Assembly (NCBI GenBank): GCA_005223125.1
Contig: NJBH01000026.1
Location: 1 to 53,951 of the forward strand
Source: Promethearchaeota archaeon Loki_b32
Lineage (GTDB): Archaea; Asgardarchaeota; Lokiarchaeia; Sigyniarchaeales; SOKP01
Length of the DNA stretch: 53,951 bases
Direction of reading: 5' to 3'
Part shown: positions 30,988 to 53,951 of the stretch, in pieces
Position numbering within the stretch: the stretch's first letter is position 1
How the letters are laid out: each line of letters starts with the position of its first letter
The notes under the pieces: generated by a model
What the model saw: the letters and a program-made list of their open reading frames with translations, nothing else
The model's database searches: none
Told to the model about the DNA's origin: nothing
Program-made: the position numbers and the translations under genes

Positions 30988-31050
30988 TTAATCTTTTTAA
31001 GAGCTTAAAAATTTCTTAAATTAAAATTTTAAATTAAAGGATGTGCAATT

Positions 31051-31626
31051 TCAAAAAATTTTGTATATAATTTCATTTATATCCTTTTTAGGAACATGCA
31101 TTAATCCTTTTTCATCTTTCCAGTAATCAAATGAACCTTCATAAGGCTCCATTGTAGATTCTTCATCTGGATATCCTAAACTTATTACATGTGTAATTTC
31201 AAAATATTCTGGGATGTTAAATAGTTCTCTTATTTTATCTCTGTCGATTGCTCCCATCCAACAACATCCTAATCCAAAATTAATTGCTCCAAGTAATATA
31301 TTTTCAACTGCAGCACCTACATCAAAATTATAATAAGTTTTCTTTATATTTGTATTTACTAAAACTACAAAATATGCTGTCGGTTTTCTTCCTTCTTCTG
31401 GAGTTCTTTGATCTTCAGGAAGCGAGGAAGCCCACCTTATTAAAGGGAACAATTCTTCTCTATTCTTCTCATTATGGACAATAATAAATTCAAGTCCTTG
31501 AATATTTCTTGCTATAGGCGCTACACGGGCAAAATCAACTAATTTTTTTAAAAGGTCTATTGATAATGGTTTTTGTTTAAATCTTCGTATTGTTCTTCTT
31601 TTGTAAATGATTTCTTCAAAATCCAT
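31051..31626 (-). CDS. Nitroreductase-family flavoprotein
   Basis: 191 aa. FEEIIYKRRTIRRFKQKPL is the FMN-phosphate-binding start of nitroreductases, followed by ARVAPIARNIQGLEF and, in the second half, VGAAVENILLGAINFGLGCCWMGAI. Uses FMN and NAD(P)H to reduce nitro groups, quinones or other acceptors; in anaerobes the true substrate is usually unknown. It begins 20 bases after the end of the longin-GTPase gene and is likely in the same transcript. Confidence 0.88.
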   Translation of the reverse strand: MDFEEIIYKRRTIRRFKQKPLSIDLLKKLVDFARVAPIARNIQGLEFIIVHNEKNREELFPLIRWASSLPEDQRTPEEGRKPTAYFVVLVNTNIKKTYYNFDVGAAVENILLGAINFGLGCCWMGAIDRDKIRELFNIPEYFEITHVISLGYPDEESTMEPYEGSFDYWKDEKGLMHVPKKDINEIIYKIF

Positions 31627-31646
31627 TTTTATCTGTCTATTTCGTG

Positions 31647-32690
31647 TTATTGCTTAGATTTAATCAAGGCTTTTGCTAATTTACAAAAGCTTTCTTCTAC
31701 ATTTTTACCTGTTAAAGCAGATGTCTCTAAATATTCTAAATTTAACTTTTTCGCGATTTCATTTGCTTGTTCTACTGAAACTTTTCTTTCATCAAGTAAA
31801 TCTTCTTTATTTCCTAAGATAAATCCAATTAATTCTTCATTTTGCATTTTTAGATTTTTAATGACATCATTATACCAATTAGGAATGCTCTCAAATGATT
31901 TAAGATTTGTCAAATCAAAGATTAAAATTACTGCTTCCGACCCTTTATAGAAGTGTCGCCGCATGATCTCGAATTTACTCTGACCAGCGATATCCCATAG
32001 AATCAAATTAGCATAATCATTATCAACTTTAATATTCTTCTCTGAGATACTTACTCCTAGCGTTGGAATATAAGTACGTATAAAAGCATGGTCAGTAAAT
32101 CTTAGAATTGTACTAGTTTTACCAACACTAGGATCTCCACATATTATTATCTTATAATTGTACCCTGATTTTCTTTCTTCTATTTTATTATCTTCCGGAA
32201 ACGCTTCTAATTCAGAGGTTGACTTCTCTTTATTAGATAAATCATCTAAAATTTCTGAAACTCTATTTTTTAATTCATTAATTTCAGTGTAGATGTCATC
32301 TGATTTAGCTTGATTATTTTCTAAATCTATGATTTTTTGAGCACTTTCACTAAAAGCGGATTCAAGATAATCGATATATTTGTAGAATATGAGATCGTAT
32401 GCCTCTTTAAATAATAAAGTAATTGACGATACTGCTGCACCTCCACGTCGAGATTCATCTGCACGTTCAATATACTTTGTTATGCCTTTTAAATTCAACA
32501 TAGGAAAAGGGATAATAACTAAAGATTGTGGAATAACACCTTGGTCAGTTGAGAGCATGGTAATTGATTTTATACCAACTGACATACTAATATTGTCAGA
32601 CAAATCAATCGGATCCCATAAGAACGGTTTAGGGCCTATTTTCTCGTCTAATAATGTGTATACTATAGCGGTAATTATTTCTTCTGACAT
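31647..32690 (-). CDS. Longin-like module + Ras-like GTPase fusion
   Basis: 347 aa. Residues 1-120 form an alpha/beta module (AIVYTLLDEKIGPKPFLW, then LVIIPFPMLNLKGITKYI) that I judge longin-like. A helical linker with coiled-coil character (about 120-165) follows. The G domain from 170 has GDPSVGKTST, WDIAGQ, GNKEDL and ETSALTG. The same N-terminal module heads the proteins at 33863, 43654 and 53167. Longin domains regulate trafficking GTPases in eukaryotes; here the fusion suggests intramolecular control or membrane targeting. No transmembrane segment or prenyl motif. Confidence 0.85.
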   Translation of the reverse strand: MSEEIITAIVYTLLDEKIGPKPFLWDPIDLSDNISMSVGIKSITMLSTDQGVIPQSLVIIPFPMLNLKGITKYIERADESRRGGAAVSSITLLFKEAYDLIFYKYIDYLESAFSESAQKIIDLENNQAKSDDIYTEINELKNRVSEILDDLSNKEKSTSELEAFPEDNKIEERKSGYNYKIIICGDPSVGKTSTILRFTDHAFIRTYIPTLGVSISEKNIKVDNDYANLILWDIAGQSKFEIMRRHFYKGSEAVILIFDLTNLKSFESIPNWYNDVIKNLKMQNEELIGFILGNKEDLLDERKVSVEQANEIAKKLNLEYLETSALTGKNVEESFCKLAKALIKSKQ

Positions 32691-32778
32691 CGCTGAGCTA
32701 TGTTGGTAATATAAATTATAAAAATTTAAATTAATAAGAATTTGTAAATTTGACGGTTTTTGTACTTATAAATCAAAA

Positions 32779-32802
32779 TTCGTGAAATTTCCCTTTCACG
32801 AA
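32779..32802. promoter_or_regulatory. Perfect 9-bp inverted repeat upstream of longin-GTPase gene
   Basis: TTCGTGAAA and TTTCACGAA are separated by TTTCCC. It lies 89 bases before the longin-GTPase start at 32690. Symmetry and position suit an operator; a hairpin RNA is also possible. Confidence 0.4.
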
Positions 32803-32956
32803 GAATTAGATTTTTACGATTTACTTTGAAATATTATGTTTTTGGCATTATCATCCTGATTTGGAAATAAATCATTAGGGACACTAATTTTTTCTAGTGC
32901 TTTTGCAACAATTAATTACAACAAATTAATAAAAAACTACTTTATATTTATAGGAT

Positions 32957-33002
32957 ATTCTGGTTATTTAGTGATCATATAATATACTAAAAAAACCAGA
33001 AT
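32957..33002 (-). terminator. Hairpin downstream of the small membrane protein gene
   Basis: ATTCTGGTT pairs with AACCAGAAT and the pairing continues inward (TTTAGT against ACTAAA, with one bulge) around a 12-14 base loop. It lies 90 bases beyond the stop of the minus-strand gene at 33092. Could be a processing or termination structure. Confidence 0.35.
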
Positions 33003-33091
33003 TCTCAAGGATATCTTATCTATTTAATAAAAAATAGTAAAAAGAAAAAAAAGTATATTTTTTAATTTTTTTATATGAAATTGTTAATTAT

Positions 33092-33538
33092 CTATTCTCC
33101 GCCAACGAATTTATCAATAACAAACGCCGCTATCGATAAACATCCAGCAATGATAATACCGATGGGTGCAAAGCCAATAACAGCATCCTCTGTCGCTTCA
33201 AGTATAAGCGCTAAAATTGGGAAAATTAACATAGCAATTCCAGCTAGTACATAGATTAACCAATCCCACTTCCATTCTTTACCTTTCCAAGTACTGATAC
33301 TCAATAATAAAAGTGCTGCGATTGACATCATTGTTAATCCAAAAGTCCAAGCTTGTAATCCAGCTCCAACCCACATATCTGCTGGATCGCCCCAATATTG
33401 AACAGCACCTGTAAGCCAACCGGTTATATCAAAACCAAATCCTGAGTCGGCAGTACCCCATGGTGTTAATATTGCTATTAACGCTAAAACTGCAGCTATT
33501 AAGGCATAAAACCAAGAGTCTTTCTTAAAATCTACCAT
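33092..33538 (-). CDS. Four-helix membrane protein, unknown
   Basis: 148 aa with four membrane helices (about residues 10-26, 58-84, 92-115, 120-143). Between helices 1 and 2 is a Gly/Trp-rich outer loop (WGTADSGFGFDITGWLTG). Minus-strand GAGTGA precedes the ATG. No family recognised. It lies between the two longin-GTPase genes and in the same direction, so it may belong to the same functional group, but the gaps of 325 and 401 bases argue for separate promoters. Confidence 0.6.
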   Translation of the reverse strand: MVDFKKDSWFYALIAAVLALIAILTPWGTADSGFGFDITGWLTGAVQYWGDPADMWVGAGLQAWTFGLTMMSIAALLLLSISTWKGKEWKWDWLIYVLAGIAMLIFPILALILEATEDAVIGFAPIGIIIAGCLSIAAFVIDKFVGGE

Positions 33539-33862
33539 TTTTTTTCACTCTATTTATTTAAACTAAAATTGATTTTCATAAATTTTTTTGTTAATTTCTT
33601 CTTTATTCACAAGATATTTAAATGTTATCTAAAATACTCCTTCATTAATTATTAAAAGTAAAATATACTAAAAGATAACCTCTCAGTAAAATAATTAAGT
33701 CCTTGATCTTAGAATAAGTTGATAATGATTATAAGATTTTAAGTCTTCAACAATTTATCCTACCTCGGTGTTAATTCTCAAAATAAGAAGGTTGACCAGC
33801 TACAAGGCATTGAGAAAGATACATACAAAAATGTGCAAGATTTGGATCAAAATAATAAATTA
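33539..33862. other. Gene-free stretch with a possible coding fossil
   Basis: Mostly AT-rich. At 33760-33867 one plus-strand frame reads VNSQNKKVDQLQGIEKDTY and on to a TAA without any start codon, which may be a fossil of a coiled-coil protein. Confidence 0.4.
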
Positions 33863-34912
33863 CTATAATCGAGATTCATACAATAACTTCGCAATGGTTG
33901 AAAACGCATAATTCACATTTTCTCCCAATAGTGCTGAAGTTTCAATAAATCCTAATTTTAATTTACTTGCTAATTGATCTACTATTTCAGAAGATATCTT
34001 ACAACTATCTTTCAAATCTTTTTTATTTCCAATTATGAATCCAACTAATTCTTCAGAGCGGTCTTTCACTTGATCAACTACATCTGAAAACCATTTAGGT
34101 ATATTATCAAAAGATTCAGGTTTTGTCAAATCGAACACTAAAAAAACCGCATCTGAACCTCGGTAGAATTGTTGTCTCATTGTTTGAAATTTTTGTTGGC
34201 CTCCTATATCCCAAAGTGTTAATTGAATAACAGTTTGCTCGATCTTAAAGATTTTGTCGCTCACCATGACCCCGAGAGTTGGCACGTAATTTCTCCTGAA
34301 CGCATTATTAGTATATCTTAAAATTAATGAAGTTTTTCCAACATTTGGGTCCCCCACTATAATAATTTTAAATTGATAATCTATTAAACTTCGATCTTTA
34401 ATTTGTTGTTCAGGAAATTCTTCACTCGCAATCTCTTGTTGAGCAACCTCTTGAAGTCTTAGTTCTTCTAAAAGGCTAGAGATATTAAATTCAAGATGTT
34501 CTAATACATTTATGAAATCTTCTCTAGAAGCCCCTGATTTTTCTAGACTTACTATAGTTCCAGAAAGATTATTGAAAGGAATAGAAAGTTCATTAAGATA
34601 TTTATAAAAAATGACATCAGCATTTTCTTGAAATAATAAAACTATTGCAGATTGACCAATGTTTCCTCGTCTAGAAGGATCATCCCATTTAATATATTTA
34701 ACTAATCCCTTTAAATTCTTTGAAGGAAAAGGTAATATTACTAAAGATTCTGGAACCAGCCCTTTCTCTCCTGATAATATCGTTAAAGCTTTTATACATA
34801 TATGAATAAGATCCATCTGTGAAAATTGAGTAGAAAGCCAAGCTACTGGATTTGGACCTAATTCGTCGTTCATTTCTACATAAACAATCCCTGATATTAT
34901 TTTCTGCTCCAT
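33863..34912 (-). CDS. Longin-like module + Ras-like GTPase fusion
   Basis: 349 aa, paralog of the protein at 31647 with the same plan. Module residues 1-120 (GIVYVEMNDELGPNPVAW; LVILPFPSKNLKGLVKYI), Glu/Gln-rich linker, G domain from 172 with GDPNVGKTS, WDIGGQ, GNKKDL and ETSALLG. Switch II reads DIGGQ, while the neighbour has DIAGQ. The conserved DPSRRG after the LP(F)P strand is shared with DESRRG in the neighbour. The two probably arose by duplication and then diverged. Confidence 0.85.
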   Translation of the reverse strand: MEQKIISGIVYVEMNDELGPNPVAWLSTQFSQMDLIHICIKALTILSGEKGLVPESLVILPFPSKNLKGLVKYIKWDDPSRRGNIGQSAIVLLFQENADVIFYKYLNELSIPFNNLSGTIVSLEKSGASREDFINVLEHLEFNISSLLEELRLQEVAQQEIASEEFPEQQIKDRSLIDYQFKIIIVGDPNVGKTSLILRYTNNAFRRNYVPTLGVMVSDKIFKIEQTVIQLTLWDIGGQQKFQTMRQQFYRGSDAVFLVFDLTKPESFDNIPKWFSDVVDQVKDRSEELVGFIIGNKKDLKDSCKISSEIVDQLASKLKLGFIETSALLGENVNYAFSTIAKLLYESRL

Positions 34913-41608: not shown

Positions 41609-41842
41609 ATGAAAGAATTTACATTAAAAAAGATATTTGTTTGGTTAATGTTAACAATTAATTTATTATTTGCTTTTGTAATTGGTTTAACAATTCCATT
41701 ATTAGAATCGGAGAGTAATTTTAATCTTGGATTTGTTATGATTCCATTGCTAGTAATTCTCAATTATGTAATAGTAGATAGGTATCACTATTATCTCAAA
41801 CATACTAAAAGAAACGAGGAAGAATTGGATGCAAATATTTGA
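41609..41842 (+). CDS. Small two-helix membrane protein linked to archaeosortase
   Basis: 77 aa: two membrane helices (about residues 8-28 and 40-56) and a charged tail. Its last 14 bases overlap the start of the archaeosortase gene (ATGCAAATATTTGA contains both the start and this gene's TGA), so translation of the two is likely coupled. No known family. The fixed overlap suggests a partner role. Confidence 0.65.
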   Translation: MKEFTLKKIFVWLMLTINLLFAFVIGLTIPLLESESNFNLGFVMIPLLVILNYVIVDRYHYYLKHTKRNEEELDANI

Positions 41843-42701
41843 GAACTTGAGCAAAATTAAGAAACCTATTATTGAATACGATGAAAGAAGATATATTTTT
41901 TCCATTAGATCTCTAATTCTTTTAACTATTGGAGCACCAATATCTGCTTATTTAATTTACCTATTCTTTGATTGGGAAGCTCAATTTTGGTTGCATGAGA
42001 TAGTCGTAAAACAAACAGTTTATTTCTTAAATTTATTCTTTAATATGGGCGCAGAAGCTCAATTTGCTCCAAGTGGGAAATATTTCTGGAAGTTTTCAAT
42101 TCCAGGACAGAGCCCAATTTATTTCGAGACGTTTTGTACTGGAATTCAAGCAATATGTATTTTCGCAGGTATTATTATTTTTACTCCCCACAGTCAAGAT
42201 CCAACTGCTAGAGAAGATATAGTGTGGAGAAAAACAAAGGCTCTTATTGTTTCATCAGTTATCTTTTATGTTGTTAACATAATTCGTATGATAATTCAAA
42301 TTAATTTATATTATATCGGGTATGAGTGGGCTGATATACATTTCTCTATAAGTGCAGCTAGTTCATTTATCGCAGCGATAATAGTACTTTTAATGCATAA
42401 ATGGATTCCTGAATTTATAATATCTATTATATATACAGGAACGCTAGTAAGTGAGCCTTTAAAACAAAAGAGGAAAAAACAAGTAAAGGAAATGGTGGAA
42501 AAATCTAATAAAGCTGAATTAAAACCGATGCGTAAAATTTTAAAAATGGAGAAAAAAACTTTTTCAAGAGATATTTCTAGTTGGTCAGACGATTTTGGTT
42601 ATACTATTGAAGGAGATTACTTGGTTATTCCACCTGAAAAAGCATCTAAATTTATAGAATTATTAATGCAAGATAAACCATTTCTAAAAGAGAGCGAGTA
42701 A
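41829..42701 (+). CDS. Archaeosortase/exosortase-family transpeptidase
   Basis: 290 aa with several membrane helices. The family's catalytic triad is visible in order: Cys103 in ETFCTGIQAI, Arg153 in NIIRMI and His171 in ADIHFSIS. These enzymes cut a C-terminal sorting helix and attach surface proteins to a lipid or other anchor. About 85 residues after the last helix form a cytoplasmic basic domain (PLKQKRKKQVKEMVEKSNK...) that ordinary archaeosortases lack. No sorting-signal protein (e.g. PGF-CTERM) is seen in the window. Confidence 0.82.
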   Translation: MQIFENLSKIKKPIIEYDERRYIFSIRSLILLTIGAPISAYLIYLFFDWEAQFWLHEIVVKQTVYFLNLFFNMGAEAQFAPSGKYFWKFSIPGQSPIYFETFCTGIQAICIFAGIIIFTPHSQDPTAREDIVWRKTKALIVSSVIFYVVNIIRMIIQINLYYIGYEWADIHFSISAASSFIAAIIVLLMHKWIPEFIISIIYTGTLVSEPLKQKRKKQVKEMVEKSNKAELKPMRKILKMEKKTFSRDISSWSDDFGYTIEGDYLVIPPEKASKFIELLMQDKPFLKESE

Positions 42702-42754: not shown

Positions 42755-43657
42755 ATGTTAAATTTTGAATCTGAACAAAAAACATTCAAAATGGGTAACG
42801 TTAAATTCGGTGGTCAGCCCGGAGAAAATCCGATTGTTATGGTAGCAACTGTTTTTTATACAAAACATGCCGCATTGTTGGATGAAAAAACCGGTAAATT
42901 TGATAAAAATATTCTCGAACAAGAGTTAAATGATTTTACAGAAGTTATTGAAGAAACACAATTACAAGGAGTAATTGATGTAGTTGGGGCATACCCAGAA
43001 GTGTTGATAAAGGAATGTGAGTTTATTGCTGATAATGTGGAATATCCATTCTTAGTTGATGGTCTGAATGATACTTCTAGAATTCCCGCTATGAAAGGAT
43101 TACAGGAGATCGGATTATTGGATAAAGCAATATTAAACAGTATTGATGAAAATACTAATGATGAGAATCTAGAAAAACTAAAAGAAATTGGAGTAAAAAA
43201 TGCTGTTTTATTAACATTTGGAAATAAATATATGTTTCCACAGCAGAAGTTAAAATTCTTAAAAGAAATTTTGATTCCTAAAGCTCAAAAAGCTAATATT
43301 GATAATTACATCGTTGATACGGCTGTTTTGGATTTACCCTCAATTTCCATTAACTTTGAAACTGTAGGATTAATTAAAAAAGAACTAGGATTGCCAGCTG
43401 GATTCGCTCCTGCTAATGCGATTTATGGGTGGAGTTTTGTTAAAAAGTATGGTGAAAGCGCTCGATGTGGTGCAATTGCTTCCATAATGGCCTATTGTGC
43501 TACTGCACCTAGTGATTTTATATTGTTTGGACCAATAAAATTCGCTAAATGTGTTGTACCTGCAATTGCATTGATTTCTGGAGTTAATTCCTACTATCAA
43601 AAGAGAGTAAAAAGAAAGAAAATATCTGAGCGAACACCATTAAAAACAATTTTTTAA
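42755..43657 (+). CDS. mtrH: MtrH-like methyltransferase (tetrahydromethanopterin S-methyltransferase subunit H)
   Basis: 300 aa TIM barrel of the MtrH family, which moves methyl groups between tetrahydromethanopterin and a corrinoid. It begins MLNFESEQKTFKMGNVKFGGQ, with PGENPIVMVATVFY next; later IPAMKGLQEIGLLDKAILNSI, and LPAGFAPANAIYGW. No other Mtr subunit is in the window, so this is a stand-alone member as found in non-methanogens with methylotrophic or corrinoid methyltransferases. Its stop overlaps the stop of the convergent GTPase gene. Confidence 0.88.
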   Translation: MLNFESEQKTFKMGNVKFGGQPGENPIVMVATVFYTKHAALLDEKTGKFDKNILEQELNDFTEVIEETQLQGVIDVVGAYPEVLIKECEFIADNVEYPFLVDGLNDTSRIPAMKGLQEIGLLDKAILNSIDENTNDENLEKLKEIGVKNAVLLTFGNKYMFPQQKLKFLKEILIPKAQKANIDNYIVDTAVLDLPSISINFETVGLIKKELGLPAGFAPANAIYGWSFVKKYGESARCGAIASIMAYCATAPSDFILFGPIKFAKCVVPAIALISGVNSYYQKRVKRKKISERTPLKTIF

Positions 43658-45156
43658 GCGATATATCTTAATAACAGGTCTTTTGTTTGATTTAAAAATT
43701 CTGATAATTGCTTATTTATTGTCTTTTTTCTCTTTTCATCATCTATTAAAAATAGAAGAAACATATTATTTTCTTCAATTTGGATTTTTTTAAAAAGTAT
43801 CACTGAATTAGCAACTTTAAATATTGCTTCTTCTTTCTGTAGAGCCTTGAATTTAGCAAAAATTTTAAATAACACAGTAAATTGCGGAGCTGTTACTTCA
43901 AATACATTCATTACATCTGCTTTTGGTATTTTAATTAATTCCATTGCTTCATTACTGTAAAAATCTGCTAAAACTAATCCATCACTGCTTAGTAATAGAG
44001 TCAAATAGGAATTTGTTGTTAAAGAGAAATTTCTAAGATTATGGTTAATCAAATCTCTATTTGGGCTTAATTTTGATATCCCAGAAGAAAAAGCGCGTAA
44101 TATTGTAAAAATTTGAAAGATGCTAGTTATAAAAATTTCGAGTGGTTCATCAGAAGTAATTTTAGCTAGTTTTTTTTTAATAAATTCAATATTTTCTTTA
44201 AGTTCCAATGTTTTTATGACGTCAGAATCTCCTTTAGATAAAATATAGATTATAGGAGTATTTTGATTGAATTTATTCAAAACATTTTTTAAACTTTGAA
44301 GATAATCGATACTCTCTTCGAATCTCTTTCTATTTTTTATATCAATAAAATAAAAAAGTAAATCTGCTTCATATAAGTAGATTTCTGCTTTATTAATATA
44401 CTTCTCTCTAAATACAAATTGTCCTCCTAAATCCCATAAAAAGATTGTTGCACCTAGTGCTTCTATAGATTTTATACTTGCACCAGCAGTGGGTTTTAAT
44501 CCAATTAATTTACTATATTTACGATCAACAGAAAGTAGAAAACTAGTTTTACCTGAGTCGTCTAATCCTGCGAACAAAATTTTCATCTTTCGGTGCGTAG
44601 TAATAGGTGTTGAGGGGCTTTTTTCAATTTCTATTAAGCCTAATAAAAGATCATCACGGAAAAGAGGTTCAATATCTTGACGGGGCGGATAAATTTTTTC
44701 GATATCTTTGTCAAAAGATTTGAAAAATTCATATACTACTGGTTTAATTCGATTCATGTTATTATACAAAAAACTTCGACTATTCTCTTCTACTAATATT
44801 GAAAAAGCCGTAGCTACAGGGTGATCTGAGTTTATTCTAATAAAATGGAAATATGTAAGCGAGGTAGTATTAAAATCAGGATACGGTAAAATTGCATAAT
44901 ATTGTATTTTTTGTAGATCTGTCTCTTGGGATACTATTTTATCACTAATAAACAAACTTAAATTTTTAATAGAAATTTGAGTTATATCTCTATATGTTAA
45001 AATAAGATTATCTTCCCTATTTGATTCTTCGCTAATTTCTTTTAATTCTTTTTCTGTATAATAATTGGGGAAGCAATAAATTGGAGCTGGGCCAAGCTCT
45101 CCATATACACTAAAAACAAAACCCTTTATAATTGAAGATTTGAGTAATTCTTCCAT
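43654..45156 (-). CDS. Longin-like module + Arf/Rag-like GTPase + roadblock-like tail
   Basis: 500 aa, three parts. Residues 1-125: the longin-like module (GFVFSVYGELGPAPIYCFP; YYAILPYPDF). About 190-360: G domain with GLDDSGKTS (197-205), WDLGGQ (241-246) and SKGD in the G4 place of NKxD, closest to Arf/Rag/Gtr GTPases. About 375-500: alpha/beta tail with LLLSSDGLVLADFYS, which looks like a roadblock/longin fold as at the end of Rag GTPases. AGGAGA stands directly before the ATG. Its TAA overlaps that of mtrH by two bases. Confidence 0.82.
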   Translation of the reverse strand: MEELLKSSIIKGFVFSVYGELGPAPIYCFPNYYTEKELKEISEESNREDNLILTYRDITQISIKNLSLFISDKIVSQETDLQKIQYYAILPYPDFNTTSLTYFHFIRINSDHPVATAFSILVEENSRSFLYNNMNRIKPVVYEFFKSFDKDIEKIYPPRQDIEPLFRDDLLLGLIEIEKSPSTPITTHRKMKILFAGLDDSGKTSFLLSVDRKYSKLIGLKPTAGASIKSIEALGATIFLWDLGGQFVFREKYINKAEIYLYEADLLFYFIDIKNRKRFEESIDYLQSLKNVLNKFNQNTPIIYILSKGDSDVIKTLELKENIEFIKKKLAKITSDEPLEIFITSIFQIFTILRAFSSGISKLSPNRDLINHNLRNFSLTTNSYLTLLLSSDGLVLADFYSNEAMELIKIPKADVMNVFEVTAPQFTVLFKIFAKFKALQKEEAIFKVANSVILFKKIQIEENNMFLLFLIDDEKRKKTINKQLSEFLNQTKDLLLRYIA

Positions 45157-45250
45157 TCTCCTAAAAATTTGTATTTGATTTTTAAGATGTAAATTTCTTA
45201 ATTTAATTTAAGCAAATTTAATTATTAATAGCTTTATATTTAAATCATAT

Positions 45251-46219
45251 ATGTCTCTGAAAAAAATCGCTAAAATCGCTGCTAACATAAGGAATAACCC
45301 ATATATTATTGAAAAACAAGAAATAAATCCTATTGTACAATATATTGATAAAAATTCTTTTAAGAGCACCAAAATATTCCGTGATATTGGAGAAGATTCA
45401 GCAGCGATAGATGATGATGAAAAGTTAATATTAATTACAACTGATAGAATCAGGACTTCCTTCATCGAAAATTTTCCATTTGGTGCTGGATTTAGTTCTA
45501 TTTTGGTCAGTGTTGATGATATTTATGCGTGTGGGGGTATTCCATTAGCAGCTAGTATTATTATTTCTGTAAAAGACCCTAAGACATGTAATGAACTATT
45601 AAAGGGGATATGTGAAGGTTCAAGAAAATTCCAAATCCCAATTATAAGGGGACACACCAATGTTAATAGTAAGTGCTATGAATTAAGTACTACGATGATT
45701 GGTGAAATAAAGAAAGAAGATTATATATCTGCAGGAAACGCACAAATTGATGATAAGATTATTTTAGCTGTTGATTTCGATGGGAAAGTAGGGAAAGCTA
45801 GTAACCTTTATTATGATACTACAACCTTTAAAGATTCAGAGATAGTTTTAAAAAAAAGAAGAGCTATGAATGTTGTTGCAAGCACACATTTAGCAAACGC
45901 ATCTAAAGATGTTTCAAATGGGGGGATATTTGGTACTTTAATCCAGTTGATTAAATATTCAAATGTAGGAGCAGATGTGAACATTAATAGAATTATACTT
46001 CCGCCAATATTATCTGAAAGTGAATATGATTTAAATACATACGTTAAAATGTATTTAACTACTTCTTTTATATTAACTGCTCCAGAAAATAATTGTGAAA
46101 AGATATTTGATATATTTAGAGAATATGGATTGGACGCTCAAGTTATTGGGGAGATTATTGCTCAGAATAAATTGAAAATAAATGATGGTAACGATTCAGT
46201 TGATGTAATCCGATTTTAA
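45251..46219 (+). CDS. PurM/AIR-synthase-like protein, methanogenesis marker 2 type
   Basis: 322 aa. The N-terminal half has IGEDSAAIDDDEKLILITTD, then GAGFSSILVSVDDIYACGG with the PurM-type metal/ATP residues. The C-terminal half has YYDTTTFKDSE and ASKDVSNGGIFGTL. The pair (D/E)TT..K.SE plus KD(V/I)S..G..GTL agrees with methanogenesis marker protein 2. PurM-like proteins (SelD, ThiL, HypE) activate small molecules with ATP; this one's substrate is unknown. It is divergent from the three-domain GTPase gene, with 94 bases between. Confidence 0.8.
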   Translation: MSLKKIAKIAANIRNNPYIIEKQEINPIVQYIDKNSFKSTKIFRDIGEDSAAIDDDEKLILITTDRIRTSFIENFPFGAGFSSILVSVDDIYACGGIPLAASIIISVKDPKTCNELLKGICEGSRKFQIPIIRGHTNVNSKCYELSTTMIGEIKKEDYISAGNAQIDDKIILAVDFDGKVGKASNLYYDTTTFKDSEIVLKKRRAMNVVASTHLANASKDVSNGGIFGTLIQLIKYSNVGADVNINRIILPPILSESEYDLNTYVKMYLTTSFILTAPENNCEKIFDIFREYGLDAQVIGEIIAQNKLKINDGNDSVDVIRF

Positions 46220-46349
46220 TAATTTTTAGTGAGAAAATCATGCCGGATTGCACAAAAGTTTAATCCTAATTCACCAAGAATTTTATGATTGAAATTAAAA
46301 ATGAGATTAAATTTAATCAAAATTCTTACCAAGATTTCACTTGGTTTTA

Positions 46350-47060
46350 TTAAATAAGGCTTGAATGACATAAATTACATTTTGTACGAGTTGAATCATT
46401 CATAGCACCACACATCGGACAAATAATTTTTCGTGATTTTTTCAATTGAATCTCGGCTTCCTTTTCTGCTCTAAATTTTGCCATTTTTTCCGCAACATCT
46501 CTTGCCTCTTTTTCCCTTGCCTCCCTTTCTGCTTTTTCTCTCGCTTCTCTTTCCACCTTTTCTTTTGCCTCTCTTTCAGCCTTTTCCTTAGCTTCCCTTT
46601 CTGCTTTTTCTTTCGCCTCTCTTTCAACCTTTTCCTTAGCCTCCCTTTCTGCTTTTTCTCTAGCATCTCTTTCAGCCTTTTTCTTAGCCTCCCTTTCTGC
46701 TTTTTCTTTGGTTTCTCTTTCAGCCTTTTCCTTAGCTTCTTTTTTCGCTTCTCTTTCAGCCTTTTTTTTAGCCTCCCATTCCGCTAATTCTTTGACTTTT
46801 CGCTCTATTTTTTCTCTATCTTCCTTTTCTGCTCTTTCGATCTCTTTTTTTTCCTTTCTTTGTTCCATGGCAATTTTTGCTTTTTCTTTGCTGTCTCCTA
46901 CTTTCTCCTTTACTTTTGTAGCAAATTTACCTAAACTTTGTTTACTACCTCTTAATTTTCCTTTTAATTTAGCTTTAAGAGTACCTTCGGTTTCTTTTTC
47001 TAACTCTTTCGAATTTTCTGAAGCAGTTTTGGTATCTTCTTCATTATTGGATTCATTCAT
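46350..47060 (-). CDS. Charged single-helix protein with C-terminal zinc ribbon
   Basis: 236 aa. Residues about 60-205 are nearly only Glu, Lys, Arg and Ala in an 8-residue period (EREAKEKA and variants), the pattern of a long single alpha-helix or coiled coil. The last 25 residues form a zinc ribbon: CPMCGAMN ... KCNLCHSSL. The N-terminus is Ser/Glu/Thr-rich. This recalls a rigid spacer holding a zinc-binding head. Zinc ribbons of the same type head the roadblock protein at 49015. Confidence 0.7.
   Translation of the reverse strand: MNESNNEEDTKTASENSKELEKETEGTLKAKLKGKLRGSKQSLGKFATKVKEKVGDSKEKAKIAMEQRKEKKEIERAEKEDREKIERKVKELAEWEAKKKAEREAKKEAKEKAERETKEKAEREAKKKAERDAREKAEREAKEKVEREAKEKAEREAKEKAEREAKEKVEREAREKAEREAREKEARDVAEKMAKFRAEKEAEIQLKKSRKIICPMCGAMNDSTRTKCNLCHSSLI
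46497..46770. repeat. 24-bp coding tandem repeat inside the charged-helix gene
   Basis: On the plus strand the unit TCTCTTTCAGCCTTTTCCTT plus AGCC alternates with TCCCTTTCTGCTTTTTCTTT plus CGCC, giving a 24-base period and a 48-base higher period. It encodes the EREAKEKA helix repeat. Copy number could vary between strains. Confidence 0.65.
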
Positions 47061-47184
47061 TTAGATTAACACTATTAAGTAGTTTTATTAGATAAGATTA
47101 ATATCACCAATATTAATATTTTATTTTTATCATTATTTTAATAGTTAAAATATTATCAGTAAGAGAAAATTGGGTCTGAATAAG

Positions 47185-47706
47185 ATGAATGTTGATTTTA
47201 AAAAGAAGTTTAAAGGGATAATTTCAGTAATTGGAGCTAGTGAAATCGATAAGAAAACTGAGGTTTTAGCGTTTGAAATAGGTAGATTACTTGCTCAAAA
47301 TAAATTCATCGTATCTTGTGGTGGTCTTTCAGGTGTAATGGAAGCAGTATGTAGAGGTGCAAAAGAAGAAAATGGATTAACTATTGGAATAATTCCTCAT
47401 GTAGAAAAATCTGCTGCAAATAAATATATTGATATTGTTATTCCTTGTCCATTTTCCCAAGCGAGAAATATTGTGGTTGTTCTCAGTGGTGATGCGTGTT
47501 TAGCTATTAGTGGTAAAGCGGGGACATTATCAGAAATTTGTTTTGCCTGGATATATCAAAAACCAATTGTAGCACTTACTAGTGTTAAGGGATGGTCATC
47601 AAAAATTGCTAATAAAAAATTAGATGATAGAAGAAATGATAAGATCTATGGCGTGGAAACACCACAAGAAGCAATTTCGAAAATCAAAGAATTACTTAAT
47701 AAGTAA
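47185..47706 (+). CDS. LOG/TIGR00725-family nucleotide-binding protein
   Basis: 173 aa from the ATG at 47185; a TTG five codons upstream is less likely. Rossmann-like fold: IISVIGASE, then VSCGGLSGVMEAVCRGA, and SGKAGTLSEI where LOG proteins have PGGxGTxxE. TIGR00725-type proteins are relatives of the LOG lysine-decarboxylase-like phosphoribohydrolases. Because the PGG is SGK, activity on nucleotide monophosphates is uncertain. It lies just before the GTPase-roadblock gene. Confidence 0.82.
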   Translation: MNVDFKKKFKGIISVIGASEIDKKTEVLAFEIGRLLAQNKFIVSCGGLSGVMEAVCRGAKEENGLTIGIIPHVEKSAANKYIDIVIPCPFSQARNIVVVLSGDACLAISGKAGTLSEICFAWIYQKPIVALTSVKGWSSKIANKKLDDRRNDKIYGVETPQEAISKIKELLNK

Positions 47707-47845
47707 TAAGTCTAATCTTTTAATTTAAAGAAGATATTGCAAAAAGAGAAATAATACAAAATCTAAAATAGTATGTTATAATTTTTTATCTTACAAAAAG
47801 AATATATTTATATTGAAATTACTTATATAAGGTTAAAGGTGAAAT

Positions 47846-48817
47846 TTGACTTTGGAAAAGAATCTGAAACAATCAATTTTATACTTAAAAAAAGAAGAAC
47901 CTGAAATGGTCGTAAGCCCTAATAAGGTTCTCTTTACAGGCTTAGATGATGCCGGCAAAACGAGCATTATTTTATCACTTCAAAGAGAATTTTCAAAAAT
48001 TGCAATCCTTTCCCCCACAAGAGGTGCACAGCGAAGAATATTCAATTTTTTGGATAAAGAAATCTCAGAATGGGATTTAGGCGGACAATTGGCATATCGT
48101 ATTGCCTACTTAAAAAATCCAGGCAAGTATTTTGAAGGAACTGAAATTGCAATCTATGTAATTGACATTCAAAACAAATCAAGAATACCGGAGGCTACAA
48201 GTTACTTTAAAGATGTAATAGAACAATTTAAAGAATTAGAAATTGAACCCCCGATATATGTATTTCTTCATAAATTTGATCCTGCTTTACGAAGAAGTGC
48301 CCAAAATGAAATGGAATTGTTAATTATAGATTTAAAAGATAAATTAAGAGACACTAAATATAAAGAAATTTATTATTATGAAACTTCTATTTATGATTTT
48401 GGTTCAATTATCACAGCTATGTCTGAGATTCTTTTAAGTCTATATCCAAAATCAGAATTAATAGAAAAAACAATTCATGAATTTGCTAAAAAAGTAAACT
48501 CTGAAGGAGTCGTAATAATTGATGACAATTCATTAATTATTGGATCTTACTATAAGGATGAAGAAACAAAACATCTTTTAACAGCCTCAACCCCATATTT
48601 CTTGACGTTGCATGATTCCTTCCAGTTTACCAGTCCCATGGAAGAAAAGTATGAAAATAGAATGATCGTTCAAAGATTTGGCAAGAACTTCATATTTAAA
48701 CAAATAACGCTAAAGAAAGAGTCAGAACCATATTATTTAATACTTTTAAAGGAGGATCCAGTTTTCCGTAAAGAAGATCTCGAATCCTTCGCAAACTTAT
48801 TAAAAGAGATTTTATAA
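47846..48817 (+). CDS. Rag/Gtr-like GTPase with C-terminal roadblock-like domain
   Basis: 323 aa, TTG start with AAAGGTG four bases before it. G domain at residues 25-190: GLDDAGKTS (32-40), WDLGGQ (76-81), HKFD in the G4 position. Residues about 210-323 are an alpha/beta domain (EGVVIIDDNSLIIGSYY ... YYLILLKEDPVF), as in the C-terminal roadblock fold of Rag GTPases. It has no N-terminal longin-like module, unlike the related protein at 43654. The next gene encodes a separate roadblock protein in the same direction. Confidence 0.82.
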   Translation: MTLEKNLKQSILYLKKEEPEMVVSPNKVLFTGLDDAGKTSIILSLQREFSKIAILSPTRGAQRRIFNFLDKEISEWDLGGQLAYRIAYLKNPGKYFEGTEIAIYVIDIQNKSRIPEATSYFKDVIEQFKELEIEPPIYVFLHKFDPALRRSAQNEMELLIIDLKDKLRDTKYKEIYYYETSIYDFGSIITAMSEILLSLYPKSELIEKTIHEFAKKVNSEGVVIIDDNSLIIGSYYKDEETKHLLTASTPYFLTLHDSFQFTSPMEEKYENRMIVQRFGKNFIFKQITLKKESEPYYLILLKEDPVFRKEDLESFANLLKEIL

Positions 48818-49014
48818 ATAGAGGAGTTTAGTTAAAATTATTTCTATTTGAAAACGTTGTATATTGGTTTCATTAGTACTAACATTAATAAAATTTAATT
48901 TTTATTTATATTTTATATTATAAACACTAAAAAAGGATATTTTCATTATTTATCTTATAAAGATTAACTGATTAACGAGATTAACCAAAAGAATCAAAAA
49001 GTGGGATTATTCTA

Positions 49015-50085
49015 TTGATCATATGTCAGAATTGTGGTACTACTAATAATGAAATTAATACTCGCATTTGTAGGAATTGTGGTGCATTATTACCAGTTTC
49101 CTCCAAATCACGTAGAGTAAGAGGGCAAAGAATTAGTACGGAAAAGAAAAAAAAACAGAAAGCAACTAAACAACCAAAACAAAAACCTGTTAAACAAGAA
49201 AAAAAAGTAGAAGATAAATTAGAATTAGAAGAAATCCCGAAAGAAAATGGGATTATTGATAAAGAATTGGAGTTACACGAGATTCCCACTACTGTCCAAG
49301 AAGATTTTGAAATTCAAGCCCCTGAAGAAAGTAAATCAACAATTTTACAAGAAATTCCAGCTCAACCTTTTAAAGGATCAATAATAAACTCTCGAAGTGG
49401 TGTCAGATCACCTCCATCCCTACCTACTCTCCCTCCTCGCTCTGGGGACACAATTTCTAATGCTTTTTCAGAACTTAAAAAATCAGTATTAGAAGAACAA
49501 GAGGAATATAAAGAAATTCCATTATCTCCAATTCCCTTAGAAACTAGCGTAAGCGAAGAATCAGTTAGAAAAAGAAATCAACTAGAAAAAGATATGACAG
49601 AAGTTTTAGGATTTCTTTCGAAAAAAATCTCAGTTAAAAAATTGGAAATTCCTAAAGCTAAGACAAAACAAAAAGAGGAACCGAAGGAAGAAATTCCACC
49701 TTCGAGTATGAATGAAATCTTGAAAAGATTAATCACATTAGACTTAAATATTGAAGCGTCCGCAATAATAAAAACAGATGGAACGATATTAGCGTCAGCA
49801 ATCTCAAGTAGAATTTCTGATTCTTTATTTGCTACAATTGCTATGAATCTTTCAACGATAGGAACGGATATTATAGAAGGATTAGGTGCTGGTACATTAA
49901 AATCTATTTCTCTAAAAGCCACAGAAGGAGTTTTAGATCTAGCCCCTATCGATAAAGAAAATCCAAGCGTTGAAGATATGTTTTTAATATTATTTTCTCA
50001 TCCCAAAGTAAAAAGTGGAATAATATCCTTTGCTGTTAGTATAGTCAAAAAACAAATTAAGAATTATTTAGGTTTAAAAAAATAA
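49015..50085 (+). CDS. Zinc-ribbon + roadblock/LC7 protein
   Basis: 356 aa, TTG start preceded by GTGGGATT. Residues 1-25: zinc ribbon CQNCGTTNNEINTRICRNCG. Residues about 30-230: long, charged, Pro/Glu-rich linker with the repeated motif LxxxEIP. Residues about 235-356: roadblock/LC7 domain (ILKRLITLDLNIEASAIIKT, then DGTILASAI and MNLSTIGTDIIEGLG). Roadblock proteins such as MglB and Ragulator subunits act on Ras-like or Rag GTPases, and the gene directly upstream encodes such a GTPase. I infer a GTPase regulator. Confidence 0.82.
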   Translation: MIICQNCGTTNNEINTRICRNCGALLPVSSKSRRVRGQRISTEKKKKQKATKQPKQKPVKQEKKVEDKLELEEIPKENGIIDKELELHEIPTTVQEDFEIQAPEESKSTILQEIPAQPFKGSIINSRSGVRSPPSLPTLPPRSGDTISNAFSELKKSVLEEQEEYKEIPLSPIPLETSVSEESVRKRNQLEKDMTEVLGFLSKKISVKKLEIPKAKTKQKEEPKEEIPPSSMNEILKRLITLDLNIEASAIIKTDGTILASAISSRISDSLFATIAMNLSTIGTDIIEGLGAGTLKSISLKATEGVLDLAPIDKENPSVEDMFLILFSHPKVKSGIISFAVSIVKKQIKNYLGLKK

Positions 50086-50121
50086 AATTGCTCCACAACA
50101 GATATAAAGGGTATTTCTGAC

Positions 50122-50916
50122 TTAATTTAATCTTTTTTGTATATATATTTTATTAATTTGAATAATCTTAAAATACTTTAAATTATTATGTAATTCTTGC
50201 AAAAACGAGTTCAATTCGTAGATTGAAACAAGAGGAATTTGATTATTATTAATTTTTATACTATTATCCTCTAAAGTAACCATTAAAGGTATTATTATAA
50301 ATGGTAATCGCTTCTTAAGATTCAATTTGCTGCCTAATAATTCTTGAACTAGCTTTGAGAATATTTCAGGATTTTTTTGAAGGGCTATAGCTCGATTATA
50401 CTGTAGATTTGCTGCTTTATTAATAGAACTGAATGAATCCTTACGTTTCCATTGTTTTGCGTCAACCAATAAAACGTATTTTGAATAAATCCCAATAACA
50501 TCAATTTCATAACGTTTTTGCGAAGTTTTGGATTTAAAAGTTGATTTATCTGAAAATCTAAAATTTTTTGTTGTAATATAATTATTTCTTGAAAGAATTT
50601 CTTGAACTAAAATTTCGAAACCGTCATAATTTAATATCTCAGAGAACCGTTTAATATCAAATTCTAAAGTGCTGATTGCATCTATTATAAATAGAATCTT
50701 GTTAATTACAACATAGTTTTGATAATTCCCTTTCTTAATAAAGATAAAATTGAAATTCCCCAAAAAATCTCTTAATTCATACTGATTAAATTGAATTAAG
50801 AAAGGAATTTCTGAAGGTTCCCACCAAATTTCAAAAACATTTGTATCTGTTTCCCTTAAAATATGATATATATCTGTATAAAACTGTCTTAACGAAATCT
50901 GAGAATAGATTTTCAT
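50122..50916 (-). CDS. PD-(D/E)XK restriction-endonuclease-like protein
   Basis: 264 aa. The middle has DGFEILVQEILSRNNYITT followed by YEIDVIGIYSKYVLLVDAKQW: the catalytic pattern E...(E)ID...DAKxW with the D-x-K of PD-(D/E)XK nucleases in the Mrr/NERD style. N- and C-terminal flanks are not recognised. No methyltransferase gene is nearby, so it is not a classical restriction pair; a repair or defence nuclease is possible. It is convergent with the roadblock gene, 36 bases apart. Confidence 0.7.
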   Translation of the reverse strand: MKIYSQISLRQFYTDIYHILRETDTNVFEIWWEPSEIPFLIQFNQYELRDFLGNFNFIFIKKGNYQNYVVINKILFIIDAISTLEFDIKRFSEILNYDGFEILVQEILSRNNYITTKNFRFSDKSTFKSKTSQKRYEIDVIGIYSKYVLLVDAKQWKRKDSFSSINKAANLQYNRAIALQKNPEIFSKLVQELLGSKLNLKKRLPFIIIPLMVTLEDNSIKINNNQIPLVSIYELNSFLQELHNNLKYFKIIQINKIYIQKRLN

Positions 50917-51197
50917 TAATTTAAAAATAACATCTCAGTAAAATAAATTAAAGAGAGTATAAGAATTCTGAAACTACTAAAAAAAACATTAGGAAGTGAT
51001 TTTTTCATAGGGGATTTCTATGAATTTGCCAGGAAAATGCGATAAAAATTAATTACCTTCATCTATATCTTACTTCTTAATAATTTGATGATAAATCTTT
51101 AGCTTTAATCAGTTAATAATATTTTTTTTAATAGACTCTCAGCTATTATTAATCAAGGTATTTATTTTAAAAATGAAAATAAGCTGTTATCATAATT

Positions 51198-53006
51198 ATG
51201 GATTTATTACCTAGAGTATTTAGAACTGAAGGAAACATAGCAGAATTCGATTCCGTTAAGATTTTTGAAAGCATATTAAAAGAGACACATATGAAAGAAA
51301 CAGATGCTAAACATATAACTGAATTAGTAGTAAGAAGGATAATTAGTTCTGGTATTAAATTTCTTTCTGGCCCCCATATAAGAGAAATTGTCTGTTCAAT
51401 ACTTTCAGAACAACATTTTGAGAACGAACGAAAATTATATACGCGAATTGGTATGCCTCTAATGGATTATGAAGAAATTCTTGAAAAAGGACATAGTGAT
51501 CAACCAAATTTGCGAATTAATCCAGAAAAAATCAATCATTGGTCAGCAAACCAAATAGCAGAAGAATATGCTCATTTAAGATTACTTGACAACGAAGAAT
51601 CTAAAGCGCATCTATATGGTGATATTCATATTAATGGATTGTGTTATTTTGATTTGAGACCATTCAGTCAAATTTGGGATCCCCGTATAATATTAAATAA
51701 TGGATTTCCTCCAATAAATAATCTAAAAGGTCACTTAAAGCAAGGCTTACCAAAAGATCTCGCTTCCGCCTTTTTTCAGATTTTTGCATGGCTCGGAACT
51801 GTTCAAAGTGAATTTTATGGGTGTCAAGGTTTCAATTTAATAACAATTTTTTTAGCACCCTATATTTCAAACTTATCTGAAGAAGAAATCAAACAAAGAA
51901 TTCGAAAATTAATTTATTTGATAAATAATTTACCACTTATTATTGGGCGTGAAGTTCCATCAATATTATTATCTTCATGTATTTCTATCCTTGATGTCTT
52001 CTCTAATGTTCCTGTTATAGATTTTAAGGGAAAAACCAAGAATGTTTACGGAGATTATCAAGAACAATGTTTAAAATTATTTAAAGCACTAATTTTCCTA
52101 TTTAAAGAGAGAAGTCAGAAAAATATTACTAATTCAACACCAAAACACCAAATAATCCTAAATAATAAATTTATCAAAGATGTAGAAGGTATTTACTCGA
52201 ATTTTTGGGATGATATTAGCACGAATGGAAATAATTATTTTATGAATTTATGTTTGGATACATATACTAAAAAAAATATTGATAAACTTTCTAAGAATAA
52301 CTTTTATAATTACGGACTTCTTCAGAATATTAGCTTAAACTTACCTAGATATGCTTATATTAGCCGAGATGAAGAGGACTTTTTGGAAATATTAAGATCG
52401 AAACTAATACTAAGTTCAGAAATTTTACTAAAAAAATACAATATAATAGAAAAAAGATTAGAATCAAATCATTTACCTTGCTGTAGTAGTATTTATAATA
52501 AAGAACCACTTTTTAAATTAGAAAATCAGAGTTTGTCATTTAGCTTGGTTGGATTGAATGAGTCAATAAAAACTTTAACAAATTATGAACTCCACGAACA
52601 TTCAGAAGCAGTTAAGTTTAGTTTGAGGATTTTAAACGAGCTAAATAAAATATGTGTAGAATTAACAGAAGAAAATGATAAAAACTTTATATTAAGTGAA
52701 AATATCTCAAAAAAAGCAATTAAAAGATTTGCAAAATTAGACTTAAAACATTTTCCAAAAGAAGTTAAATTATTACATAACAGCAATAATTACGAGTATA
52801 CAAATTCAATTCATTTTCGTAATGATATTAAGATTGATTTGCTTAAGAGAGTAGAAATTCAAGGAAATTTTCATCGCCTCATTCAAAATGGAGCAATTGA
52901 ATGTATTCCTTTAAATGAACTTAAAGAAAATAATTTGATCCTTAAAGAATTTATCAATATAATATGTGAAAAATCAAGAATTTCAAGCGTAAAGTTTTAT
53001 TCTTAA
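51198..53006 (+). CDS. NrdD-like anaerobic ribonucleotide reductase without glycyl-radical domain
   Basis: 602 aa. Residues 1-90 are an ATP-cone (EFDSVKIFESILKET ... RKLYTRIGMP). The body follows NrdD: YGDIHINGLCYFDLRPFSQ, the NLPRYAY segment, VGLNESIKTLTNYELHEHSEA and RVEIQGNFHRLIQNGAI. It then stops where the C-terminal zinc site and the glycyl-radical loop (R-(V/I)-x-GY) should come. I see neither, and the 160 bases after the stop do not encode them. The usual CC pair ahead of NLPR appears as a single Cys (NLCLD). The protein cannot form its own glycyl radical. Confidence 0.78.
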   Translation: MDLLPRVFRTEGNIAEFDSVKIFESILKETHMKETDAKHITELVVRRIISSGIKFLSGPHIREIVCSILSEQHFENERKLYTRIGMPLMDYEEILEKGHSDQPNLRINPEKINHWSANQIAEEYAHLRLLDNEESKAHLYGDIHINGLCYFDLRPFSQIWDPRIILNNGFPPINNLKGHLKQGLPKDLASAFFQIFAWLGTVQSEFYGCQGFNLITIFLAPYISNLSEEEIKQRIRKLIYLINNLPLIIGREVPSILLSSCISILDVFSNVPVIDFKGKTKNVYGDYQEQCLKLFKALIFLFKERSQKNITNSTPKHQIILNNKFIKDVEGIYSNFWDDISTNGNNYFMNLCLDTYTKKNIDKLSKNNFYNYGLLQNISLNLPRYAYISRDEEDFLEILRSKLILSSEILLKKYNIIEKRLESNHLPCCSSIYNKEPLFKLENQSLSFSLVGLNESIKTLTNYELHEHSEAVKFSLRILNELNKICVELTEENDKNFILSENISKKAIKRFAKLDLKHFPKEVKLLHNSNNYEYTNSIHFRNDIKIDLLKRVEIQGNFHRLIQNGAIECIPLNELKENNLILKEFINIICEKSRISSVKFYS

Positions 53007-53166
53007 AAAGATCTAATATTTTAGATTTTTGGTAAAAAGATTATTTAATAAGAATAATTATTTTGATTATATTGAAGTAATATTAAGATATTAAAATATT
53101 TTTAAATATTCATTAGTTTAAACTTTAGATAGAGTAAGATCTTCCTAATAAAATAATGGGGATTAT

Positions 53167-53951
53167 TTGACCAAATCAAAGGATAAGAAAAAAAAAGGCA
53201 AACCAAGTGAACAGCAAGACACTGAATCTAAATCGAATATTATAAAAGCAGTTGTCTTAAGTATATTTGATGAAAATGGACCTACTCCCAAGATTTACTG
53301 GCCATATGATTTAGTTGAACAATCGGGACTTTTAATTGCTATGAAAACAATTAGTTTATTAATGGGGGATGCTACTTATCAAGATGGGATAGGAACAGAA
53401 GGAGTTAATTATTTTGGAATATTACCTTTTCCTGATCTAAAATTAAATGGGTTGACGTATTTTTTCCTTATACCTGATGATGAAGCACGTGGTAAAGCAT
53501 TAGCTGCAACTATTACTGTATTAATTGATGAAGAAAATAAAGTTTTTTTCTATGAAAACATGAAATATTTAAGAATTATAATAGATAAAGCAGCTACCCA
53601 AATTCAGAATAATAAGCAACATAGTGAACGAGAAATAATTATGGATGAGATAAGGGAAGAACTTTTTGAATTTGCTAATGAATTAAAAGATCCCTTTTCT
53701 ACTAAAAGACAAATTAAAATTTTATTAACAGGATTAGATAAAGCAGGAAAATCAAGTTTTATGTATGGAATTAGAAGGAAATATTCTCAAATTATTAAAT
53801 CATTACCAACTAAAGGCGTAGAAAGAACTGAAGAAAAAATTTTTGAAGAACAAAATTCTCAAATTTCTGTATGGGACTTAGGAGGCCAGAAAAAATATCG
53901 AGAAAGATATCTTGAACAAAGTAAAGTCTATTTATATAATATTGATCTAAT
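53167..53951 (+). CDS. Longin-like module + Arf/Rag-like GTPase (cut by window end)
   Basis: TTG start after GGGGAT. 261 codons are visible. After a basic N-terminal tail (about 24 residues) comes the longin-like module: AVVLSIFDENGPTPKIYWP with GPTP at residues 38-41 and GILPFPDLKLNGLTYFFLI. The G domain starts near residue 181: GLDKAGKSS and WDLGGQ are present, and the rest lies beyond the window. It is closest in plan to the protein at 43654, which suggests a roadblock-like tail may follow. Confidence 0.8.
   Translation, partial: MTKSKDKKKKGKPSEQQDTESKSNIIKAVVLSIFDENGPTPKIYWPYDLVEQSGLLIAMKTISLLMGDATYQDGIGTEGVNYFGILPFPDLKLNGLTYFFLIPDDEARGKALAATITVLIDEENKVFFYENMKYLRIIIDKAATQIQNNKQHSEREIIMDEIREELFEFANELKDPFSTKRQIKILLTGLDKAGKSSFMYGIRRKYSQIIKSLPTKGVERTEEKIFEEQNSQISVWDLGGQKKYRERYLEQSKVYLYNIDL

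Follow-up and report, generated by a model that had tools for sequence, protein, structure and literature searches.

Lokiarchaeia are archaea related to the ancestors of eukaryotes, and Asgard genomes encode dozens of small GTPases and roadblock or longin proteins. A locus in which several of these are gathered raises the question of which proteins act together, and whether they represent a counterpart of the eukaryotic Rag/Ragulator system. The window analysed herein is an entire contig (G000:C39; 53,951 bp) of a Lokiarchaeia metagenome-assembled genome (MAG; G000, 4.13 Mb in 71 contigs), and it harbours three GTPases, termed LGR1 (open reading frame 43654), GR (47846) and LGR2 (53167), as well as the zinc-ribbon/roadblock protein ZnRB (49015) and a NERD-like protein (50122). 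The first four were named in an original prediction made from the sequence, which read them as a Rag/Ragulator-like gene concentration, and all are present in the open reading frame list at the coordinates assigned to them; the neighbouring 50122, a NERD/Mrr-like PD-(D/E)XK protein, was missed there. The explanation favoured here, with a probability of about 0.5, is that of a vertically kept Lokiarchaeia signalling neighbourhood, with GR and ZnRB as a cognate pair and LGR1 pairing with LGR2.

This explanation is carried first by gene order. Amongst the Lokiarchaeia compared (labelled by family as f1–f7, by genus as g7 or g13, and by genome as G0xx), the order archaeosortase H, MtrH-like protein, LGR1, AIRS, TIGR00725, GR, ZnRB, NERD, NrdD-like protein and LGR2 recurs. 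Pairs were counted from the coordinates of ortholog search matches, using same-contig genomes only. GR and ZnRB were both found in 41 genomes, of which 38 carry them on a single contig, whilst in the other three they are split between contigs. In every one of the 38 genomes the two are adjacent, on the same strand and less than 3 kb apart, with a median gap of 200 bp and a range of 103–487 bp, save for a single exception of 2.4 kb. The adjacent, co-directional GTPase/roadblock pair of the original prediction is thus retained in all of them, and the neighbourhood is conserved across dozens of Lokiarchaeia species, such that the objection of absent synteny, foreseen in that prediction, does not apply. 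ZnRB and LGR2 likewise share a strand and lie within 20 kb of each other in 32/32 genomes, and LGR1 and GR are near each other, on opposite strands, in 29 of 30. Some genomes (L133/G026, L118/G030 and L122/G043) possess tandem duplicates of GR, so that two dissimilar G-roadblock proteins are neighbours. The neighbourhood, the pairing of LokiRagO, the ortholog of GR, with ZnRB, and the link between ZnRB and the NERD protein all appear to be undescribed so far, as no reports of any of the three, and no papers on LokiRagO/8yl2 or on a roadblock with a nuclease-related domain, were found in the open-access literature searched.

Structural and phylogenetic comparisons identify GR as a Rag/Arf-like GTPase with its own roadblock domain. 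Pfam returns Gtr1_RagA (E 1.8e-26) as well as Arf, and a profile of 35 orthologs covers almost all of LokiRagO (8yl2; E 5e-131) and reaches through the C-terminal domain of yeast Gtr1. A phmmer comparison with 8yl2 is similarly nearly full length (E 3e-88). G-domain trees were built with IQ-TREE from 33 and 32 rows; the first contained long branches (the genome's own C32c, C34 and C18b), which were removed for the second, whilst Arf1/Arl3 were included, and the result was unchanged. In both, GR clades with LokiRagO (support 100/100 and 99/99). The G3 motif WDLGGQ and a G4 motif of the form HKxD occur in 35/35 sequences, and the length of switch II, from GGQ to the strand-end position, is Rag-like at 25 residues (26 in RagA) and longer than in Arf/Arl proteins (21 in Arl3). 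The start codon of GR is uncertain, with TTG at either 47846 or 47852.

With regard to ZnRB, Pfam matches are confined to zinc ribbons, with no roadblock match, and the cysteines of its Cys4 ribbon are conserved in ≥90 % of 30 sequences. The AlphaFold2 (AF2) model places after the ribbon an arm of ~200 residues, mostly at a pLDDT (predicted local distance difference test) below 50, and then a C-terminal domain of roadblock topology (α-β-β-α-β-β-β-α). In Foldseek this C-terminus is best matched by roadblock proteins from MK-D1 and Streptomyces, by MglB and by MP1/p14, and the family profile matches the Thor roadblock structure 7f8m (E 7e-6). A separate zinc-ribbon/roadblock protein directly downstream of GR, as originally predicted, is therefore supported by profile, model and structural comparison alike. 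The arm carries six EIP motifs in the window protein, with a mean of 2.1 per protein in the family vs 0.19 in shuffles, and its stretches LxLxEIP and LQEIxPxPF are strongly conserved.

The remaining two GTPases are more elaborate. LGR1 matches Gtr1_RagA (E 9e-20) and Arf (7e-18) in Pfam, and its AF2 model, from an alignment of 33 orthologs (pLDDT 78; predicted template modelling score, pTM, 0.79), displays a β-β-α-β-β-β-α-α longin arrangement at residues 1–179, a G domain at 187–362 with a poorly predicted switch region, and an α-β-β-α-β-β-β-α roadblock arrangement at 367–499. Its top solved structures in Foldseek are LokiRagO (8yl2), RagA and Gtr1, with the Loki longin domain 8yqg ranking lower. 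In LGR2, the Arf and Gtr1_RagA matches run up to the contig end; orthologs of ~487 aa possess the full longin, G and roadblock arrangement, and the alignment of their profile to RagA and Gtr1 extends into the roadblock. The original description of 53167 as another longin and G protein is hence correct as to those two domains, and its apparent lack of a roadblock, an artefact of the contig cutting the gene, has been dropped. The plan of a G domain with a C-terminal roadblock accordingly holds for GR by profile to Gtr1/8yl2, for LGR1 by AF2, and for LGR2 via orthologs only; the expectation that the C-termini fold as roadblock domains is borne out by the models of LGR1 and ZnRB and, for ZnRB, by Foldseek as well.

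LGR1 and LGR2 are sister paralogs in both trees (99/98 and 99/97), which makes them, if any Rag-like pair exists here, more natural candidates than 43654:47846. Their motifs differ, with a G4 of S/TKxD in LGR1 and mostly NKxD in LGR2. The G3 motif of LGR1, unlike that of LGR2, which mostly retains W[DE]LGGQ, is altered in f2 and in the f1 genus g7, reading WDIPGQ, WDIPGK or WDLSGQ (L120, L131, L125, L140, L126 and L143); because of this change, the switch in LGR1 may be degenerate in these species.

The domain content, folds, orthology and gene linkage described above establish three Loki Rag/Arf-like switch GTPases, each ending in a roadblock dimerisation domain (for LGR2, in its orthologs), with LGR1 and LGR2 bearing an N-terminal longin in addition. 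From this we infer, as the most likely mechanism, that GR would self-assemble via its roadblock domain and cycle between GTP and GDP, and that ZnRB, dimerising through a roadblock of its own, would contact GR as its cognate platform or as a regulator of the GTPase-activating protein or guanine nucleotide exchange factor (GAP/GEF) type. The EIP arm of ZnRB may serve as a tether for multivalent docking, and LGR1 and LGR2 could pair through longin/roadblock contacts. The NERD protein would be an alternative or additional client of ZnRB; that a PD-(D/E)XK protein so regularly lies beside ZnRB suggests that the output, or a further ZnRB client, involves this nuclease-like protein. Coordinates are collected in Table 1.

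Table 1. Coordinates of the neighbourhood genes within the 53,951 bp window, with the lines of evidence for each
Feature	Position	Strand	Evidence
LGR1, 500 aa: longin (~44620-45156), G domain (~44071-44598), C-terminal roadblock (~43660-44058)	43654..45156	-	Pfam, AF2, Foldseek, orthologs
GR, 323 aa: G domain and C-terminal roadblock; LokiRagO (PDB 8yl2) ortholog; HKFD G4 motif	47846..48817	+	Pfam, profile match, trees
ZnRB, 356 aa: zinc ribbon (~49021-49089), disordered arm bearing several EIP motifs (~49102-49707), roadblock (~49708-50070)	49015..50085	+	Profile, AF2, Foldseek
NERD/Mrr-like PD-(D/E)XK protein, its gene converging on that of ZnRB; E137, D139, D152 and K154 invariant	50122..50916	-	Alignment, Pfam
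LGR2, cut by contig end: longin and first part of G domain	53167..53949	+	Pfam, orthologs
AIR-synthase/ThiL-like kinase (methanogenesis-marker-2-like); position between LGR1 and GR conserved	45251..46219	+	Relatives' gene order
Rossmann-fold protein of the TIGR00725 family; position upstream of GR conserved	47170..47706	+	Relatives' gene order
Archaeosortase H (NF041736, E 5e-97), kept beside LGR1 in families f1 and f2	41829..42701	+	Family match, relatives' gene order

Several observations weigh against a GR–ZnRB pairing at the centre of a dedicated signalling neighbourhood. ZnRB is absent from Prometheoarchaeum and Harpocratesius, though GR is kept there, and it is thus not essential to GR everywhere; this absence is probably a loss, as ZnRB is found in the f2 genus g13 (genome G052, between GR and LGR2), in G060 and in f4. 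The gap of ~200 bp is unlike tight co-transcription. The same kept block also contains non-GTPase genes, so that gene-order conservation of a general kind may account for some of the synteny. In f4, neither a GTPase nor the NERD protein is near ZnRB, and in f5–f7 no GTPase match was found on the 7.6–17 kb around the ZnRB/NERD pair, the f5 and f6 contigs being short.

It is the last of these points that brings in the foremost alternative, albeit an unlikely one: ZnRB would mainly be a partner or adaptor of 50122, guiding a nuclease-like module by its zinc ribbon and roadblock, and the GTPases would regulate it secondarily or simply lie nearby. Of 62 genomes holding both genes, 58 have ZnRB and NERD on one contig (54 in f1 and a single genome in each of f2, f5, f6 and f7), with 56 of them within 3 kb; the other four genomes, all f4, carry them on different contigs. 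The two genes are convergent in f1 and G060, mostly tens of bases apart, and co-directional in f5, f6 and f7, with NERD first, such that their adjacency has outlived a change of orientation. No other neighbour of ZnRB is, moreover, kept as widely as 50122, and because the pair persists in f5–f7 with no GTPase found nearby, the ZnRB–NERD link reaches further than that between ZnRB and a GTPase. Both families are in essence single-copy in a class-wide search. The residues of the PD-(D/E)XK core, (E)xD...(D/E)xK, are invariant in 27 sequences; at E≤0.01, Pfam matches NERD in 26/27 and Mrr_cat in 10/27, with the window protein just under the NERD cut-off, and a profile search returned no relative of solved structure. 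Against such a module, G052 keeps GR, ZnRB and LGR2 together with no NERD protein found there, G004 has ZnRB but no NERD protein, the four f4 genomes lack the linkage, the convergent f1 genes are not co-transcribed, and nuclease activity is itself a prediction from sequence. A further reading, doubtful at present, would have ZnRB as a roadblock hub joining a LokiRagO-type GTPase to the nuclease-like protein, with the conserved EIP arm as docking tether. If true, Lokiarchaeia would possess a nuclease, or a system otherwise linked to DNA, under the control of a nucleotide switch, and Rag-like/roadblock machinery would have a role beyond membranes and nutrient sensing.

Rather improbable is ordinary gene-order conservation amongst closely related MAGs, in which functionally unrelated genes are kept together in genomes that are simply rich in GTPases. 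The right half of the window is wholly collinear within the genus, and the source genome contains 84 Arf-model matches together with further GTPase clusters (C32, C49 and C50), as this alternative would have it. At the distance separating f1 from f2, however, Prometheoarchaeum and Harpocratesius (f2) retain archaeosortase H, LGR1, AIRS, TIGR00725 and GR at roughly 33–53 % identity, whilst some 75 kb around this block on the complete Harpocratesius contig displays no other extended collinearity to the window; the ZnRB–NERD adjacency also persists class-wide despite the orientation change. Chance clustering was considered separately. The 84 matches in 4.13 Mb predict 0.2 per 10.3 kb vs 3 seen (Poisson P 0.0013), and the Rag-like GTPases alone (~17 by our own count) give P about 1e-5, figures for a fixed window that are post hoc and whose assumption is violated by tandem duplication. 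Chance is unlikely by this measure for the Rag-like genes, and for the two reasons given synteny is taken as the stronger evidence.

Whether the locus is the genome's own Rag/Ragulator counterpart, as the original prediction implied, can be judged from the trees, and the answer is that the label fits in part where architecture is concerned, but that orthology is not supported. Human and yeast Rags group with the genome's own C59 protein and C32 pair (90/87 and 89/90; moderate support), away from the window GTPases, which form Loki-specific clades with LokiRagO/LokiRagM-type proteins. In single-sequence searches, GR finds RagA and Arl3 about equally, the C59 protein prefers Gtr1 (3e-22) to Arl3 (1e-7), and the C32 protein tested has RagC/Gtr2 as its first match; Rag orthology from the Pfam Gtr1_RagA match alone was consequently dropped. 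The Ragulator side fares no better, there being one free roadblock protein only, with no separate LAMTOR1-like gene recognised in the neighbourhood. A Rag-type 43654:47846 heterodimer on the 49015 roadblock platform is therefore very improbable, since the G and roadblock plan, the RagA/Gtr1 profile matches, the HKxD of GR and the Rag-like switch II speak for it, but the trees, the Arl3 scores and the lack of a visible LAMTOR1 or second roadblock pair speak against it, and an obligate heterodimer is disfavoured because the GR ortholog 8yl2 is described in its title as a homo-tetramer.

Rag-like architecture alone is thus no marker of Rag orthologs, for which C59 and C32 are better candidates. 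The GTPase at G000:C59:4-2671 (L227) is the most RagA/Gtr1-like of the genome (PF04670, E 3e-41), with its own Robl_LC7 domain. Its gene shares 4 bp with that of a 298-aa protein whose N-terminus is longin-like by eye, next to which lies a convergent 222-aa protein with, again by eye, a zinc ribbon and a roadblock. Of the ten close-ortholog loci examined, which include that of the source genome, every one has both neighbours, and C59 is a better candidate for a Rag/regulator locus than the window. At G000:C32:14002-17085 (L226:4003-7086), two Rag-like proteins of 300 and 305 aa stand in tandem, the second having RagC/D and Gtr2 as its best solved matches, followed by another GTPase with an N-terminal region of ~120 aa. 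This is possibly the counterpart of a pair of Rag-like genes that form an operon in MK-D1 (Tran et al. 2024, PMC10933270).

Elsewhere in the window, a protein at 46350-47060 combines a long, charged KAEREAKE-type repeat with a C-terminal zinc ribbon, and is conserved in only part of the genus. Three further GTPases lie at 30436-34912: a Ras-like protein (30436), and two (31647 and 33863) with an N-terminal region of ~175 aa ahead of a Ras domain. The N-terminal region of the latter two aligns with the longin part of LGR2, and both are conserved at the same place in several species of the genus. No Rfam elements were matched and no tRNA genes are present in the window. An anti-phage defence reading was dropped, as PADLOC gave no match for LGR1, GR, ZnRB or 50122.

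Amongst known systems, the nearest comparison is with MK-D1, in which longin–G, G–roadblock and longin–G–roadblock proteins have been described, with 26 of 74 GTPases fused to a roadblock or longin and with a switch II insert in the G–roadblock proteins (Tran et al. 2024, PMC10933270). The architectures of the window proteins are the same, and were thus already known. In MK-D1, GTPase genes are generally outside the operons of roadblock, longin and TRAPPC3 genes, and for this reason matching Asgard GTPases to regulators by genome layout was called difficult (Tran et al. 2024, PMC10933270). Here, by contrast, three longin- or roadblock-fused GTPases and a free roadblock protein constitute a kept neighbourhood, and in a sister family (same order) to that of MK-D1 genome layout does offer a match of a GTPase with a putative regulator. 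The result is one testable candidate pair, a GTPase with a crystallised ortholog beside a roadblock protein in every genome able to show the pairing. That ortholog, LokiRagO, is by the title of its PDB entry (8yl2, released 2025-09) a homo-tetrameric RagA-like GTPase from Lokiarchaeota with GTP; the Prometheoarchaeum gene closest to it sits in the same conserved block and is ~48 % identical to the GR of the window, the difference being that GR of f1 has ZnRB as a neighbour. Eukaryotic Rag/Gtr proteins share with the window the G domain with C-terminal roadblock, the HKxD of GR and the longer switch II. Unlike them and their Ragulator/EGO partners, the window proteins fall in a separate clade, two of the three GTPases bear an N-terminal longin, the single free roadblock protein has a zinc ribbon, and there is no TORC1 context. 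The MglA/MglB system is similar in that a GTPase gene stands beside a roadblock gene, and in the Foldseek match of the ZnRB C-terminus to MglB, but it differs in that GR possesses a roadblock of its own and ZnRB adds a zinc ribbon and an arm of ~200 residues.

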